A program made the position numbers and the translations under genes. Shown here piece by piece: positions 127-13,316 of a stretch of 46,877 nucleotides of DNA. The DNA is from Vulcanimicrobiota bacterium (lineage in GTDB: Bacteria > Vulcanimicrobiota > Xenobia > Xenobiales > JADMJV01), in NCBI GenBank assembly GCA_019637395.1, contig JAHBVR010000030.1, positions 1 to 46,877 on the forward strand, read 5' to 3'. The first letter of the stretch is position 1, and each line of letters begins with the position of its first letter. The notes beneath the pieces are model-generated. The model was not told where the DNA came from. It saw nothing but the letters and a program-made list of their open reading frames with translations, and made no database searches.

Positions 127-1275
127 ATGAAGATCAATCCATCCACGCAGACAACCAGGTCAGTCGCCCGGCGCAGAGCGGAAGGCCCCGACAAGAGCCC
201 AAGCGAGTCTTTCGCACCCGGTGAACGAGTGGACAAGCTGATCTCCGACCTCCGTAGCGGCAAGATTAAGTATGCGCCGGAGATCCAGGCCAGGGTTCGC
301 CAGCAGGAACTCACCCTGAGCGATTTCCCCTGCCAGAAGTACATCCTCAAGGCTGGAGAGACCGGCAATCTACCCACCGAAATCGTGGCCAAAGGAGAAA
401 AGTCCAAGTTCAAAGGCGCCACTACCGTCGACAGCAACCTCACCACCAGAGAGAACATCAAGGATCTGGAAAAACGTAACGAGGCCATCGCCGACAGTAT
501 CAACGCACTCTACGCCCAGAAGACCGAAAGCCTGATGGTTCTGCTGGAAGGCGACAACGCCGCCGGCAAAGACGGCATGGTCAAGCACGTTTTCACCATC
601 AACCCCATGACCACCAACGGTCAGATCGCCTTCAAAGGCGCCAACGAAGAAGAGCGCAAGCACGAACCCAACTGGCGCATCATGAAAAACCTGGCCGGCC
701 CCGGCCAGATCATGTTCCACAACCGCAGCCACTACGGAGACGTCGTCTTCGCGGCCAAGACTCCCGAGGACAAGGCCAAACGGTTGGCTGACATCAAAGA
801 ACTCGAATACGGCCTGACCATGGGCCTGCCCATGACCCCCGAAGGCCACATCGCGCTGCCTGACAAGAAGGGCAACGTCGACCCCAGCGCCGTCCAGCGC
901 CCGCCCATGCGCTTCATCAAAGTCTTGCTGGGCGTCTCTCAGGAAGAACAGGCGCTACGCCTGGCCGAGCGCTTGGAAAACGACGCCAAAGTCTACAAAG
1001 TCACCGCCGCCGACCTGGAAGGCCACCCCAAGCACGGTGAGGTGCAAACCAATTTCGCCGAAGCCATGGCCGCCGGCAGCACCGATTTCGCCCCCACCTA
1101 TTACCTGCCCAACGATAACAAAGTCACGGGCTGGCGCAAACTGGCCGAAATCGCCGACCGCGTACTCGAAAACATGGCCCCCGAGCCGCCCGGCAACAAA
1201 GACGGCATGTCGCTGGCCGACCGCCAGGCCGCCGCCAAGCAGTTGCGTGAGGAAGCCGAAAAGAAGTTGCGTTAA
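127..1275 (+). CDS. ppk2: Polyphosphate kinase 2 (PPK2) family protein
   Basis: PPK2 enzymes transfer phosphate between polyphosphate and nucleotides in the cytoplasm. The 382-aa product has the family P-loop at residues 141-148 (EGDNAAGK) and the second signature NRSHYGDVV at 199-207, close to the NRSHYEDVL form of class III PPK2s. A C-terminal stretch (about 270-350) resembles the family's lid and helical end. Residues 1-60 are a poorly conserved, charged extension. The ATG at 127 follows a GGGAGA about 12 nt upstream. The gene converges with the lipoprotein gene and their stop codons overlap by 4 bp. Family assignment is secure; whether AMP, ADP or GDP is the acceptor cannot be read from the sequence. 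Confidence 0.9.
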   Translation: MKINPSTQTTRSVARRRAEGPDKSPSESFAPGERVDKLISDLRSGKIKYAPEIQARVRQQELTLSDFPCQKYILKAGETGNLPTEIVAKGEKSKFKGATTVDSNLTTRENIKDLEKRNEAIADSINALYAQKTESLMVLLEGDNAAGKDGMVKHVFTINPMTTNGQIAFKGANEEERKHEPNWRIMKNLAGPGQIMFHNRSHYGDVVFAAKTPEDKAKRLADIKELEYGLTMGLPMTPEGHIALPDKKGNVDPSAVQRPPMRFIKVLLGVSQEEQALRLAERLENDAKVYKVTAADLEGHPKHGEVQTNFAEAMAAGSTDFAPTYYLPNDNKVTGWRKLAEIADRVLENMAPEPPGNKDGMSLADRQAAAKQLREEAEKKLR

Positions 1276-2126
1276 GGCGTCCAGACCTGGCCCGGCATCA
1301 ACCGGACCGTGTCCTCACCCTGAGCTAGTTCCAGCTCGTCGTCGGCCACTGACTTCACCTTATAGACGCCCACCTTGTCTCCGGGGCCGACCGCGAAAGT
1401 CTCACCCGCCTGCGTCAACACCGCCCGCCGAGCACTTCCATCCCCCAGAAAGCCTGTGAACTGAACAGGCTCTGACGAACCGGTTACCACTGACGGCGCC
1501 ACCGTGGGGATCGTCACCGGAGCAGCCGCTTCCACCGTGGCCGGGCTGGCCGTCGCCGTTTGCCAGGCGGGCGGCAAAGCCGCCTCAAGGCCGTCCAGCA
1601 CCGGTTTGATATTCATCAAAGCGCGAGTTCGGTCGTTGCGGGCCACACAGGTCTTCTTGCCCGCATCGTAGAGCCACTCCAGATAGACCCCGTTGTTGTG
1701 CACCCGGCGGGGCCGGTCGAAGGGATTGCCGCGCTTTCCAACCGTCGGCTTCTTGCCGCTGGTCAAATTGCTCAGCGGCTCGATCACGTAGGTCACCTCA
1801 AAAACCCCGGTCGCGGCCGGGTAGCATTCCCAGGTAACCCACAACTGATTTTTGCCGGCCGCGTTCAAATGCGCCACCAACTGGTCACAGCGGGCCTGAT
1901 TGGTCATCCCGTGCTGCACGAACTGGGCTGTGGCCCGCACGGCGGCGTTGGTATCCATTCCCGCTTCGGGCACGGGCGAGGCGGCGGCCACCGGGGTGGC
2001 CACCGCCGCTGCCGTCTCGACGGCCACGGGCGTGGCGGTGGCTGAAACGGTCGCCGAAGTCACGAGAGGGGGAGGAGCCGACTGACAACCGGCCAACAAA
2101 ATTCCCAACAAGCACCACCGAATCAT
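1272..2126 (-). CDS. Lipoprotein with GspC/PilP-like C-terminal segment
   Basis: The 284-aa product opens with a short hydrophobic segment ending in the lipobox LAGC (Cys14), so it should be lipidated. A Thr/Ala/Val/Pro-rich linker (about 20-55) follows, then a domain of unknown family (about 60-200), another low-complexity linker, and a final ~60-residue segment (FTGFLGDG...ELAQGED) that resembles the beta domain of GspC/PilP proteins. That similarity is by eye and modest. An upstream in-frame GTG at 2132 lies inside the Shine-Dalgarno GGAGG; the ATG at 2126, 5 nt after GGAGG, is the better start. That ATG and the start of the divergent RNA-repair gene share the palindrome CATG. Confidence 0.75.
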   Translation of the reverse strand: MIRWCLLGILLAGCQSAPPPLVTSATVSATATPVAVETAAAVATPVAAASPVPEAGMDTNAAVRATAQFVQHGMTNQARCDQLVAHLNAAGKNQLWVTWECYPAATGVFEVTYVIEPLSNLTSGKKPTVGKRGNPFDRPRRVHNNGVYLEWLYDAGKKTCVARNDRTRALMNIKPVLDGLEAALPPAWQTATASPATVEAAAPVTIPTVAPSVVTGSSEPVQFTGFLGDGSARRAVLTQAGETFAVGPGDKVGVYKVKSVADDELELAQGEDTVRLMPGQVWTP

Positions 2127-4029
2127 GCGCACCTCCGAACAACTTTACCACCAGATCCGCTGGGACAGCCGCTTCCAGGCCGCCGACTACGCGCTGGGCA
2201 TCCAGATCCGCAACGGCCCGGTCCAAGAGCTTCCCCTGCTCAGCTTCCAGCCAAACAAAGACATCCCCTGGCACCGTATCCTCTACATCAAAGGCCCCCA
2301 GGGCCTGGTCTGGGATCGCGCCACCGGACTCGACCAGTTGACGAACGACCTGCACAGCCCTCTCCAGTGGCCCCTCGACATCATCCTCTGGAACGTGTGC
2401 GCCGGCAAGCACGGCAGCAACAAGCACATTCCTCAAGACCCCTACCACATCCGCGTGCTGCTGGAAGCCGGTGACGAATTCTGTCACAATTTAGCCGAGG
2501 GAAACTACCGCTATCGCCACCAGGAGATGCTGGTCGACCTCCACTACCCGCCCCAAAAGGTCGTCCCCGTCAACCTCTCTCCGGGCAAAGACGCTCTGCT
2601 CATTCAATATCCTGAACTTCAGGTGGCCGTAGCCCATTTTACCAGCAACTACCGCCAACCCAACCACGAACTGAGGAACCAACAATGGAGAGTCCTGCAA
2701 CCTCACTTGAAGGCTCCCTGGCTTCTCCTCGGCGATCTGAATGCCGCCGACCAGGAACTGCAAAGTTGGCCCTGTCAGGATCTGACCCCTCCGACTCCCA
2801 GCTATAAGAACCGCCGCTACCAGCGCATCCTCTGCAGCCCCGACCTGGACGGCCAGGCCCAAACGCAAAAGAGCGAACTCTCCGACCACCACCCGATTAC
2901 CGCCCAAATCCTCAAACCCGAACGCAGCTACCAGCACGCCCTGGCCATCTTGCCCCCGCCTTACCAGCCCATCCAGGACATCCGCCGACTTAACGATCCC
3001 GCCTACGACCGTTGGCCCCCCCATCTCAACCTGGTTTTCCCCGGTCCCTCCCAGCCTAACTACGACCGCCTGCGCCTGGCCCTGGCCGACATCCAAAGAT
3101 TCACGGTAAGATTCAAGAAAGTAGAATGCTTCGATAACAAAACTTACTACTGGGCCCCCGAAGATCCGGCGCCCTTCCACCAACTCACCGACGCTCTCGG
3201 CTACCCGCGCATCACCCCTCACCTCACCCTGAGCAAGAAAGCCAGGCCCAGGCTAGAAGCCTGGGAGTTCGAAGTTCTTTCCGTCGACCACCTGGAAAAC
3301 CAGACACTCAAGCACTCCATCCCGCTACGCAAACCCCATCCCGCCTATGACAGAATTCGTCACCGCTGCAAAGCCTTGCAAGTCGGCTCCAGCTTGTATC
3401 TCGACAACCAGGACCTCGACCTGGTCACCCTCCAGCTCCCTCAGCCGCTTCCGGAAGAACGACAACTTCCGTCACTCATAAGAGGCCTCCATTATGACCT
3501 GGCCGACGCCAGTCACTGGCAGGCGGTGGAAGACCGCGACGCACTCTTTACCTACACACAAAGAGACTTTCCGGAAAAGCTGGCAAAATTATACAAGCAG
3601 TTGCATAAAACCGGCCTCAAGGGCCAGGCCTGGGGACTGCCCGGAGGACTGGCCTGGGCCGTTATTCTGGCTACCCGGGCCAGCGACTTCACCCGGCCTA
3701 TCGGGCTGCACCGCCACGACCCCAGCGGTAAACCGATGACGGTCTGGAGCCCTCATCCACCCGGCACCAACCTGACCGCTCACGTCCCCAAAGAGTTCCT
3801 GGCCATCCTCAAGCCAGACCAGGAATACGAGCCGCAAAAGCCCTACCTGGACATCCGGGCCTCCAACGGTATGGAACTGATCATGGATTTGCTCAGGCAG
3901 TTCAAGGCCCAACTGCGCCCCTTTGTCCACGAGGACGGTTGCTACCTCAGCCTGCGCAACGTTGACCCTGAAAGGGCTTTACAGCACGCTCGGAAGCTCG
4001 GCTATAAAGTCAGCTTGCGCGACGGCTGA
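2125..4029 (+). CDS. Multidomain RNA repair protein: MJ1316 (DUF504) - EEP - 2H phosphoesterase - poly(A) polymerase-like
   Basis: This 634-aa protein joins four RNA-end-processing modules. Residues 1-75 match the MJ1316/DUF504 domain (IRWDSRF, DYALG, RILYIKG, LVWDR), predicted to recognise cyclic RNA ends. Residues 83-262 are EEP-like with GDLN (203-206) and SDHHP (253-257), although the usual LQE metal ligand is not evident. Residues about 275-395 carry the paired 2H motifs HLNL (300) and HLTL (366), expected to open 2',3'-cyclic phosphates. Residues about 405-560 show a nucleotidyltransferase signature (GSS at 421, DLD at 430-432) followed by GLPGGLAWA (504-512), typical of the central domain of poly(A) polymerases. 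The reading as an RNA repair enzyme rests on these families; the substrate is unknown. No Shine-Dalgarno precedes the ATG. It overlaps the next gene's 3' end by 28 bp. Confidence 0.85.
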   Translation: MRTSEQLYHQIRWDSRFQAADYALGIQIRNGPVQELPLLSFQPNKDIPWHRILYIKGPQGLVWDRATGLDQLTNDLHSPLQWPLDIILWNVCAGKHGSNKHIPQDPYHIRVLLEAGDEFCHNLAEGNYRYRHQEMLVDLHYPPQKVVPVNLSPGKDALLIQYPELQVAVAHFTSNYRQPNHELRNQQWRVLQPHLKAPWLLLGDLNAADQELQSWPCQDLTPPTPSYKNRRYQRILCSPDLDGQAQTQKSELSDHHPITAQILKPERSYQHALAILPPPYQPIQDIRRLNDPAYDRWPPHLNLVFPGPSQPNYDRLRLALADIQRFTVRFKKVECFDNKTYYWAPEDPAPFHQLTDALGYPRITPHLTLSKKARPRLEAWEFEVLSVDHLENQTLKHSIPLRKPHPAYDRIRHRCKALQVGSSLYLDNQDLDLVTLQLPQPLPEERQLPSLIRGLHYDLADASHWQAVEDRDALFTYTQRDFPEKLAKLYKQLHKTGLKGQAWGLPGGLAWAVILATRASDFTRPIGLHRHDPSGKPMTVWSPHPPGTNLTAHVPKEFLAILKPDQEYEPQKPYLDIRASNGMELIMDLLRQFKAQLRPFVHEDGCYLSLRNVDPERALQHARKLGYKVSLRDG

Positions 4030-5207
4030 GTGGTTCCCTCAGCGCGCACAAACTCCGCCGCCGTCCCCTCAAACTCGCGGAATCCCCGCTTATACTCGGC
4101 AAAAGCACCCAGCACCGAGCGAGCCAGAGCGTCCTCCGCGCAGCCGCAGACCACCTCCAGCAGTTCCAACACCGAAGTCGATTTCAGAGACAGCCAGTGC
4201 CACAGGCGCGCCCGGCCCTCCCGCAAAGCCACCGCCCAAAAAGCCATCGGGGCCAGCGCCTGGGAAAACGACTGGGCGTCCACCATGCGTACTTCCAAAA
4301 AGCGGCGCAGACGCAAATCCGGAAACAACGTCCCCAAATGCGTCTCCCAGTCTGCCACCCCCGGAAACGTCCCGTGCCACCCCGAGCTTTCCCATTGCTC
4401 CCAGGTCAACTCGCCATACAACGGCTGCTTCTCCAGCGGCAGATCGCCGGCCAGAAACACCCCCGCCTGACGCGCCCAACTGGCGTACGCCGAAGCGATA
4501 TCTGGTTGAAAGGCTACCGGCGGAATGCCCGTGCGCGAAGCATCGATGCCGTCCCAAATCCGCTGGCGTTCCGAAGACACCACCCGCTGACCCTGGAAAA
4601 ACCAGGAATTAGAAAACAGCTCCTTCACAAAAGGGGTCAAAGCCAGGGTCAAGTTGATGGCGTCCTGCCACTCCGAAAGCCCCCCGGCTACATCCACATT
4701 GGGTTGCGCGGTGGCCGAATAGCGCATCATGTGCACACCGCGGCCCCCCGGCTGGGAAGCGAAATAACGATCCAGAATCTTATAGCGATGCTTGGGAACG
4801 AGCAGCGGCAAATCGGCGCCGGCCAACGGATTGGTGCCATGATCCAGAAACAGCACCTCACCCCGCCCGGCCTCTTCCAAGATGGACAACCCCATGCGCA
4901 AATCATCCAAAAGGCCCTGCAAAGTCAAACCGGGACAGGAAGCATACTCCAGTTGCCCACCGGGCTCCAATGAGAAATTGCCGCAACCCAGGTCCAACCC
5001 GATAATCTCGCCCGTCGGACCATCCTTCTTCAACTTTCCCTGGGAAGAAACGATACGCTGCATTAACTCCTGAGGAGAAACACGCGCCCCTGGAGTACCC
5101 AGGGGCGCGAGCGTTTCGGAGTCAAATCCGAACATTTCAATTTCAATCCCCATCAGGGGCTCAACGGGCTTGGAAAAATCCGGACGGATGGCCTCGAGAT
5201 TGCTCAT
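4002..5207 (-). CDS. Glutamate-cysteine ligase-like enzyme (GCS2/EgtA type)
   Basis: The 401-aa product resembles plant-type/EgtA gamma-glutamylcysteine ligases, which join glutamate and cysteine as the first step of glutathione or ergothioneine synthesis. Supporting motifs are GIEIEMFGF near the N-terminus, GGRGVHMMRYSATAQPN in the middle, and an NSWFFQGQRVVSSERQ...IWDGIDASRTG block that matches the family's NSP-containing segment. The ATG at 5207 was chosen; an in-frame TTG at 5231 adds eight residues and cannot be excluded. It lies downstream of the matrixin gene on the same strand and may be cotranscribed. Enzyme family is well supported; the exact product is not. Confidence 0.8.
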   Translation of the reverse strand: MSNLEAIRPDFSKPVEPLMGIEIEMFGFDSETLAPLGTPGARVSPQELMQRIVSSQGKLKKDGPTGEIIGLDLGCGNFSLEPGGQLEYASCPGLTLQGLLDDLRMGLSILEEAGRGEVLFLDHGTNPLAGADLPLLVPKHRYKILDRYFASQPGGRGVHMMRYSATAQPNVDVAGGLSEWQDAINLTLALTPFVKELFSNSWFFQGQRVVSSERQRIWDGIDASRTGIPPVAFQPDIASAYASWARQAGVFLAGDLPLEKQPLYGELTWEQWESSGWHGTFPGVADWETHLGTLFPDLRLRRFLEVRMVDAQSFSQALAPMAFWAVALREGRARLWHWLSLKSTSVLELLEVVCGCAEDALARSVLGAFAEYKRGFREFEGTAAEFVRAEGTTQPSRKLTL

Positions 5208-5243
5208 CCATTCGGCTTCGCAAGGGCCCAAAAAACGCCTTTT

Positions 5244-11627: not shown

Positions 11628-12432
11628 TCAAGCAGTAAGAAAAATCATTCCGGTGCATTCCTACGGCCAGACTCAGGAAGCAGGCGCGCACGTGATTCCA
11701 GCGCACCTCGTTGAGACGGTCGCCGGCCAACCAGCGGGACAGGGCGAAACTCAGCGACAGCACCGGCGCATGCAGCGCCGTGGGCGCGATGTTCCAGGAA
11801 AAGTCGTGGCGCCGCAGCTCCTCAAAGCCCAGCTCGTGCAGTCCGTCCCACACCGCCGGCAGGTGCGGAAAGCAGTCCACCGCCCAGCCCCGGCTGATTT
11901 CCGACAATAGCCATTCGAAAAAACGGCCCCGCCGCGCCCGGGTCGTAAAACCATCCACCACCACAAAACGCGCGCCCGGCTTCAAGACCCGGAAAAGCTC
12001 CCGGTAAAAATCCGCCTTGTCCGGTCCGTGCGCATAACAATGGCTTTCCAGCGCGTAAGCCGCGGCCACCGAGTCGGCGGCCAGCGGCAAATCCAGATAG
12101 CTGGCCAACTGCACCCGGGATCCCAGCAAAGCCGCCTGCTCCACCTGCCAGGGCACCACCGTCACGCCCAGAATATTGCGCCCGCCCCAACGGCGCTCCA
12201 GCGAACGCATGCTGGCCCCCAATCCGCAGCCCAGGTCCAGCACCAGCTCGTCCAGACCCACTCCTTCCAGCCCCAGGCGCGAAAAGACCTGGCGGTTCAT
12301 CTCCTCCAGCATGGGTTCGCGGCGCAGCGGATTCAGACCCGGACGCCAGTAGCCGAAGTGCATATTGAACTGAGCGCTCCAGGTGGCATAATCCAGGCCC
12401 GTATCACTGAAGTATTGAACGACATCACTCAT
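11608..12432 (-). CDS. SAM-dependent methyltransferase, UbiE/tocopherol-methyltransferase-like
   Basis: The 274-aa protein has the Rossmann SAM-binding motif VLDLGCGLGAS, a motif-II-like ILGVTVVPWQV, and the post-motif FYRELFRVLKPGARFVVVDG. The N-terminal YFSDTGLDYATW...MHFGYW is typical of small-molecule C-methyltransferases acting on prenyl-ring or sterol-like substrates. It is the last gene of a three-gene minus-strand operon; its start overlaps the EEP gene's stop by 4 bp (ATGA at 12429-12432). The 3' end overlaps the convergent response-regulator gene by 20 bp. Substrate unknown. Confidence 0.85.
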   Translation of the reverse strand: MSDVVQYFSDTGLDYATWSAQFNMHFGYWRPGLNPLRREPMLEEMNRQVFSRLGLEGVGLDELVLDLGCGLGASMRSLERRWGGRNILGVTVVPWQVEQAALLGSRVQLASYLDLPLAADSVAAAYALESHCYAHGPDKADFYRELFRVLKPGARFVVVDGFTTRARRGRFFEWLLSEISRGWAVDCFPHLPAVWDGLHELGFEELRRHDFSWNIAPTALHAPVLSLSFALSRWLAGDRLNEVRWNHVRACFLSLAVGMHRNDFSYCLISGRKP

Positions 12433-13316
12433 AAAGTCACTCCGACAATCAGCGGCAGGTGGTCCGACCCCACCAGGGGGCCCACCCGGCAGTCAACCAC
12501 TTTGACATCCGGGCTCACAAAACACTGATCGATGGCGATGCGTAAAAAATTAGGCAAGGCCGAAGGCCAGGTGGCCAGCACTCCAAACCCGGCGCGGGCC
12601 GTCATCGCCTGGTCACGGATGGGAGCCAGGGAAGGCGACCAGGGGGTATTGTTCAAATCGCCCAGCAGGGCAAATGGCCTGGGGCATCCTCGCAAATGCT
12701 CTCCCAGGCCCGCCACCGTCTGGTTGCGCAAACGGGCGTGGGCCCCTCCGACAGGCGGCATCGGATGAGCGGCCACCACGTGCAGTTTGTGACCGCCCAC
12801 CAGGGTATCGGCCACGATCGTAGGCGGTCCGCCGCTTTCCAGCACCTGCACTCCCGTCAGTTCCCGCTTGCTCAGCAGGGCCATTCCGAAATTGTCGGAG
12901 CGAGGCAGCAGCTTCTGACCGGGATACTGAGCCAGCACTGGCGCCAAAGTCTCCAGGAGCGAGGGGCGGACTTCCAGCAGCACCACCACGTCGGCCTGCT
13001 CGCTTAGAAGAAAGTCGCGCACAAGTTCCGGAGTGGGGTTCTGAGCCAGCGCGTTGCATAGCAGCAGCTTGCCCCGGGCCAGGCCAGGCGAGCCGCCAAA
13101 GTAGAGGGGAAGGACGCAGGCCAGGTTGATCACCAGGCAGCTCATCCACAGCACCGCCGCCGCCCGCTCCCGCACCAGCGGCAACAGGCATAGTCCCAAT
13201 AACAAATAGGAGACGCGAGCGTGACCGAAAAGCTCCAACCACCACGGCTCACTCACCAACCCCAGCAGCGAGACCAACAATCCCGCCCCCAGGATCCAGC
13301 GAATCGCCCGGGTCAT
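12429..13316 (-). CDS. Membrane-anchored EEP-family phosphodiesterase
   Basis: Three hydrophobic segments in residues 1-90 are followed by an endonuclease/exonuclease/phosphatase domain (about 85-295). Visible family signatures are ADVVVLLEVRPS (metal-binding Glu), VVAAHPMPP, LLGDLNNTPWSP and the terminal GSDHLPL. The domain would face the periplasm, as in YafD-like proteins. Both ends use ATGA overlaps (13313-13316 and 12429-12432), so it is translated with its neighbours. The physiological substrate (lipid headgroup, nucleic acid or phosphoester) cannot be read. Confidence 0.85.
   Translation of the reverse strand: MTRAIRWILGAGLLVSLLGLVSEPWWLELFGHARVSYLLLGLCLLPLVRERAAAVLWMSCLVINLACVLPLYFGGSPGLARGKLLLCNALAQNPTPELVRDFLLSEQADVVVLLEVRPSLLETLAPVLAQYPGQKLLPRSDNFGMALLSKRELTGVQVLESGGPPTIVADTLVGGHKLHVVAAHPMPPVGGAHARLRNQTVAGLGEHLRGCPRPFALLGDLNNTPWSPSLAPIRDQAMTARAGFGVLATWPSALPNFLRIAIDQCFVSPDVKVVDCRVGPLVGSDHLPLIVGVTL

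Follow-up and report, generated by a model that had tools for sequence, protein, structure and literature searches.

The 634-aa protein encoded near the start of the window (the whole analyzed stretch of 46,877 nucleotides) is a compact, probably polymerase-dead member of a known predicted RNA-repair family, ordinary in kind and unusual in form. We consider it likely (probability about 0.6) that this protein is a 2H-based healing enzyme for RNA ends bearing a 2',3'-cyclic phosphate and that it feeds a ligase pathway encoded elsewhere in the genome; each single step of such a mechanism is less certain than the whole. The coordinates and the frame of the gene, proposed in an earlier sequence-only reading, were verified (Table 1), and the module order MJ1316, EEP (endonuclease/exonuclease/phosphatase), 2H, and poly(A) polymerase (PAP) agreed with Pfam, the predicted fold, and the family profile. 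Thus, the ORF, the family, and the order of modules stood, whereas a lost ligand in EEP and a working nucleotidyltransferase, also suggested in that reading, did not.

Table 1. Features of the MJ1316-EEP-2H-PAP-like gene and its neighbours in the window.
Feature	Residues	Position	Strand	Basis
ORF, compact MJ1316-EEP-2H-PAP-like protein, 634 aa		2125..4029	+	ORF list, syntenic ortholog, dN/dS 0.16
MJ1316 domain, predicted cyclic RNA end recognition	1-65	2125..2319	+	Pfam PF04457
EEP domain, TDP2-like fold	81-266	2365..2922	+	fold, sub-threshold Pfam, conserved columns
2H phosphoesterase domain (H300-L-N-L, H366-L-T-L)	270-400	2932..3324	+	Pfam PF13563
Nucleotidyltransferase palm of PAP, shortened remnant (G421-S-S, D430-L-D432, D458)	405-463	3337..3513	+	
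PAP-central-like helical region (GLPGGLAWA)	464-563	3514..3813	+	family profile
C-terminal region, possibly reduced RRM-like PAP RNA-binding domain	574-634	3844..4026	+	alignment position, beta-alpha pattern
Lipoprotein gene, divergent, start overlaps ORF start		1272..2132	-	
409-aa gene resembling glutamate-cysteine ligase, convergent		4002..5231	-	named by inspection

The 634-aa ORF is a functioning gene, and every structured domain of its product is under purifying selection. The ortholog in a congener, isolate SZAS-1, is 71% identical, has the same neighbour genes, and shows the same shortened layout. Between the two proteins, dN/dS was 0.16 for the whole gene, and 0.10 for MJ1316, 0.19 for EEP, 0.16 for 2H, 0.17 for the PAP-like region, and 0.09 for the C terminus; two neighbour genes gave nearly the same values, 0.09-0.12, all of these ratios being rough because synonymous sites are close to saturation. 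The predicted structure of the protein had a mean pLDDT of 73 and a pTM of 0.43.

The convergent 409-aa gene overlaps the end of the ORF by 28 bp. At 2124-2141, a CATG holds both the ATG of the ORF and a potential start (ATG) for the divergent lipoprotein gene, and codons 2-5 of the ORF read GGAGGTG on the opposite strand, a good ribosome-binding site for the lipoprotein gene. The window also encodes, at 12429-13316 on the minus strand, a second EEP-like protein; it is 295 aa long, has what appear to be membrane segments at its N terminus, and has no bearing on the gene discussed here.

To collect relatives, one genome per species was scanned with a profile; this yielded 293 relatives, 80 of which were fetched. 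A frame longer than 600 aa with a stop was found at 69 of the fetched loci (median length, 970 aa). Full-length members match the MJ1316, EEP, 2H, and PAP_central families of Pfam, and some of them also match PAP_NTPase. Against solved structures, the family profile matched human PAP gamma (E 4e-46) and TDP2 (E 1e-17); the model of the Argonema member likewise matched nuclear PAPs (E 3e-23) and TDP2 (E 2e-15). An ORF for an RNA ligase, a P-loop kinase, or both (Pfam: RNA_ligase, AAA_33) was found directly upstream in 65 of the 70 full-length relatives, with the ligase-kinase from Embleya used as the query for this count. Mostly, this ORF overlaps the start codon of the relative or ends within a few bases of it. 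Ligase and kinase are two separate genes at one locus (L014), and the operon of Argonema has the order RNA ligase, HD-kinase, MJ1316-EEP-2H-PAP. The wider family, in which a nuclear-type PAP, a TDP2-like EEP, and a 2H domain are encoded behind a ligase-kinase gene, is common in actinomycetes; no biochemistry on it was found in the literature searched. The RNA-end-repair role suggested by the sequence-only reading is supported by the profiles, by the fold and, above all, by this genomic context, that is, by the ligase-kinase gene at the start codon of nearly all relatives.

The window protein shares 23-32% identity with the actinomycete and cyanobacterial MJ1316-EEP-2H-PAP proteins (Calothrix thpR_2, BAY66805.1; Embleya; Nonomuraea; Argonema). 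Like them, it has the characteristic domain order, the MJ1316 domain, the active-site residues of EEP and 2H, and a PAP-central match. In contrast to them, it is 634 rather than a median of 970 aa long, has a shortened palm, forms a long separate branch, and is encoded without an adjacent ligase-kinase gene; a ligase or kinase gene directly upstream, usual though not universal in the family, is absent at the window locus. The spacings between active-site residues are shortened along the whole protein in comparison with relatives. Short paralogs of 281-304 aa from Streptomyces and its relatives (L019, L025, L039, L044, L050, L065, and L085) have no ligase-kinase gene nearby. They share MJ1316 with the window protein and are devoid of EEP and PAP; L019, the one scanned, also has 2H and consists of MJ1316 and 2H only. 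The 634-aa protein matched no anti-phage defence model in PADLOC.

MJ1316 is the most conserved domain of the protein (86% identity to the congener) and matched PF04457 over aa 1-65 with an E-value of 3.4e-14 (53.7 bits; cut-off, 26.3). The Pfam match of EEP, aa 133-224, was under the cut-off (E 0.0019). The predicted structure of aa 81-266 was nevertheless superimposed by VIA-align on TDP2 and other EEP enzymes over 180-187 residues (Z 20-21, 2.2-2.4 A). TDP2, a 5'-tyrosyl phosphodiesterase, was the top match among those listed (Z 20.9, 2.2 A, 180 residues), with other EEP proteins close behind; since the Z values for many EEP enzymes lie so close together, a TDP2-like specificity cannot be read from the predicted fold. 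The matches listed by Foldseek and VIA-align for the window model comprise EEP folds only, and the absence of PAP among them is no evidence against it.

An alignment of 30 sequences, including representatives of three other phyla, showed residues N90, E114, H171, D204, N206, D254, and H255 of EEP to be invariant. EEP had earlier been described as seeming to lack the LQE ligand and hence as having possibly lost one activity; the motif in fact reads LLE, and its Glu is the invariant E114. Gln233 replaces the family Asp of the R-L-D-R motif, which is Asp in 28 of the 30 sequences. The domain is about 70 aa shorter than in relatives, with an N-to-H spacing of 165 vs. about 230. With its metal and catalytic residues retained, EEP appears reduced yet catalytically plausible. 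The 2H domain matched PF13563 over aa 278-378 (E 4.8e-15, 56.3 bits; cut-off, 27), and both H300 and H366, each heading an H-x-[T/N/S]-x motif, are invariant in the 30 sequences, which bears out the HLNL/HLTL module recognized in the sequence-only reading; the spacing of the two His residues is 66 vs. 84 in relatives. These are the motifs of the LigT/ThpR 2',3'-cyclic phosphodiesterases, and opening of a cyclic phosphate is the predicted activity. Judged by their residues, both phosphodiesterase modules look intact.

No PAP family of Pfam was matched in the 634-aa protein. A PAP profile built from 68 relatives gave 17.7 bits for the window protein and 20.4 bits for its ortholog, and the best of 200 shuffles reached 0.4 bits, in agreement with the PAP module to which GLPGGLAWA had earlier been assigned. 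Residues D430, D432, and D458 can be aligned with the catalytic Asp residues of the family in the 30 sequences, though the assignment of the DLD motif is unsure because the family profile puts it under the third Asp and not under DxD. An alignment of the C terminus only (A3) put DLD into a wrong column of the family and was excluded from the conclusions. The nucleotidyltransferase segment is about half the family length: D432 and D458 are 26 residues apart, whereas actinomycete relatives have a median of 49 and the family range is 37-52, and the GS-to-DxD spacing is likewise below that of relatives. In the predicted structure, aa 405-463 had a pLDDT of 29-57 and formed no sheet. The Argonema protein, predicted with the same 30 sequences as a positive control, showed a confident PAP palm, most of it at a pLDDT of 88-95; its strands span 629-632, 647-654, 687-692, and 695-704. 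This protein is 25-33% identical to the other alignment rows; as it is not much nearer to them, alignment depth alone cannot explain the missing palm in the window protein. Of the two, however, it is the window protein that has diverged further (branch of 3.67 in the tree).

The catalytic palm is thus shortened and, as the model and the spacings suggest, probably inactive. The sequence-only reading had assumed a working nucleotidyltransferase on GSS...DLD and had placed the damage in EEP; structure prediction gave no nucleotidyltransferase fold for this segment, an outcome that the sequence-only reading had itself named as refuting this part, and it is this module that is most probably dead. 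The palm is kin by descent to that of the family, and nucleotidyltransferase activity should not be assumed from this kinship. The region of aa 574-634, where model confidence is low, is possibly a reduced RRM-like RNA-binding domain of PAP. Nucleotidyltransferases that restore lost bases and adjoin ligases have been described (PMC9503650). The full-length relatives would be expected to extend the healed 3' end with nucleotides ahead of ligation. That all four modules of the window protein are active, with a minimal nucleotidyltransferase performing this step, is unlikely: the alignable Asp residues, the purifying selection on the PAP-like region, and the confident eukaryote-like PAP fold of relatives fit it, but the contracted Asp spacing, the missing palm sheet, and the unsure motif assignment do not.

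Genes for potential partners of a healing enzyme were found elsewhere in the same genome. An RNA ligase and an HD-kinase (HD and P-loop kinase domains) are encoded adjacently on another contig and are orthologs of the Argonema operon genes, with 58 and 43% identity, respectively. At this locus (L093, 4176-7698; contig 36), an oxidoreductase-like ORF lies ahead of the pair and a methyltransferase ORF overlaps its end, so that the operon is possibly wider. The same split layout, with ligase and HD-kinase away from the family member, was found in Catellatospora, and in a Myxococcales genome, ORFs resembling the ligase and the HD-kinase lie at a distance from the family member. The own genome also carries KptA/Tpt1 (E 1.5e-51) and RtcB; a genome-wide search with PF02834 as the sole profile of the 2H kind gave no LigT match. 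Deinococcus and phage RM378 have HD-type kinases for which a 3'-phosphatase domain has been described (PMC1997131). The HD-type PNKP of Deinococcus radiodurans, which was studied on DNA ends, combines HD and P-loop kinase domains as the unlinked gene does (PMC1997131), and is kin of this partner candidate, not of the 634-aa protein.

In the proposed pathway, MJ1316 would hold RNA 3' ends bearing a 2',3'-cyclic phosphate, and 2H would open this phosphate to leave a 2'-phosphate and a 3'-OH. The 5'-OH end would be phosphorylated by the HD-kinase encoded elsewhere, the two ends would be sealed by the unlinked ATP-dependent RNA ligase, and KptA would take off the remaining 2'-phosphate; a route in which 2H leaves a 2'-phosphate for KptA has been described for the clean-up of 2',3'-cyclic ends (PMC9503650). 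EEP may act as a phosphodiesterase in trimming or unblocking an end, and the PAP-like C terminus would no longer polymerise, being retained as an RNA-holding or structural part. We infer the step order, the substrate, and the joint working of the unlinked parts, as well as the loss of polymerase activity. Counting against this role, no ligase gene lies beside the gene in this genus, and 2H could be superfluous if 3' phosphates are already taken off by the kinase through its HD domain. More tentatively, the protein could be a streamlined, healing-only version of a larger bacterial repair operon that unites nuclear-type PAP, TDP2-like EEP, 2H, ligase, and kinase; in it, a eukaryote-type PAP has turned into a non-catalytic RNA-holder and active MJ1316, EEP, and 2H serve the ligase and kinase genes elsewhere in the genome.

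It seems quite unlikely that the protein acts alone and outside RNA repair, either on small nucleotides (cyclic or 2'-5'-linked) or, through its TDP2-like EEP, in the removal of 5' adducts. 2H enzymes include 2',5'-phosphodiesterases, TDP2 is the closest solved EEP fold among the matches listed and is also hit by the family profile, and no ligase is linked at the window locus; but RNA ends are indicated by the presence of MJ1316 and by the ligase-kinase gene to which nearly all relatives are linked, and the near-equal Z values do not single out TDP2.

Within the phylum, the MJ1316 gene was found in only 2 of 149 genomes, those of the window organism and one congener. The ligase and HD-kinase pair was found in all 5 congeners and, within the order, in two more genomes; thus, the pair works without the MJ1316 gene. 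At the corresponding locus, congener G002 has a deletion relic (L096, 2236-2460), in which only the gene ends remain around internal deletions between intact flanking genes, and congener G001 has an empty site, so the gene is dispensable. Both the wider spread of the pair and this dispensability also count against the proposed role. The site in G001 was rejected as a second deletion scar: the end bases it shares overlap neighbour genes or form their ribosome-binding site. The branching of G000-G003 was left unresolved by the congener tree. No relative was found in phages, in IMG/VR viral contigs (two scans), or in E. coli genomes, and a phage origin is accordingly unsupported. The gene is accessory, was probably acquired, and is being lost in places. 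Decay of an acquired repair protein that is heading for loss and has no present role would suit the relic, the empty site, and the large internal shortening along the whole protein, but is very improbable for a gene that two lineages hold at full length with the same shortened layout, at 71% identity and with dN/dS of 0.09-0.19 in the structured domains.

The bacterial Pnkp1-Rnl-Hen1 complex consists of different proteins, protects the 3' end by methylation, and has no 2H, EEP, or PAP. It heals and seals ribotoxin-cleaved RNA (PMC4411300), a healing-plus-sealing logic that the proposed pathway would share. The RNA-repair systems with MJ1316 that Burroughs and Aravind predicted (2016; NAR 44:8525), as presented in PMC6514570 and PMC9503650, likewise have MJ1316 as a cyclic-end recognition domain fused to RNA-repair domains, and 2H for the clean-up of cyclic ends. 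The window protein suggests that this repair family can do without its nucleotide-adding step and still preserve the domains for end healing, and that an MJ1316-EEP-2H-PAP-like protein can work away from the ligase operon. Its compact form offers a small construct with clear mutants for assigning functions to the modules.
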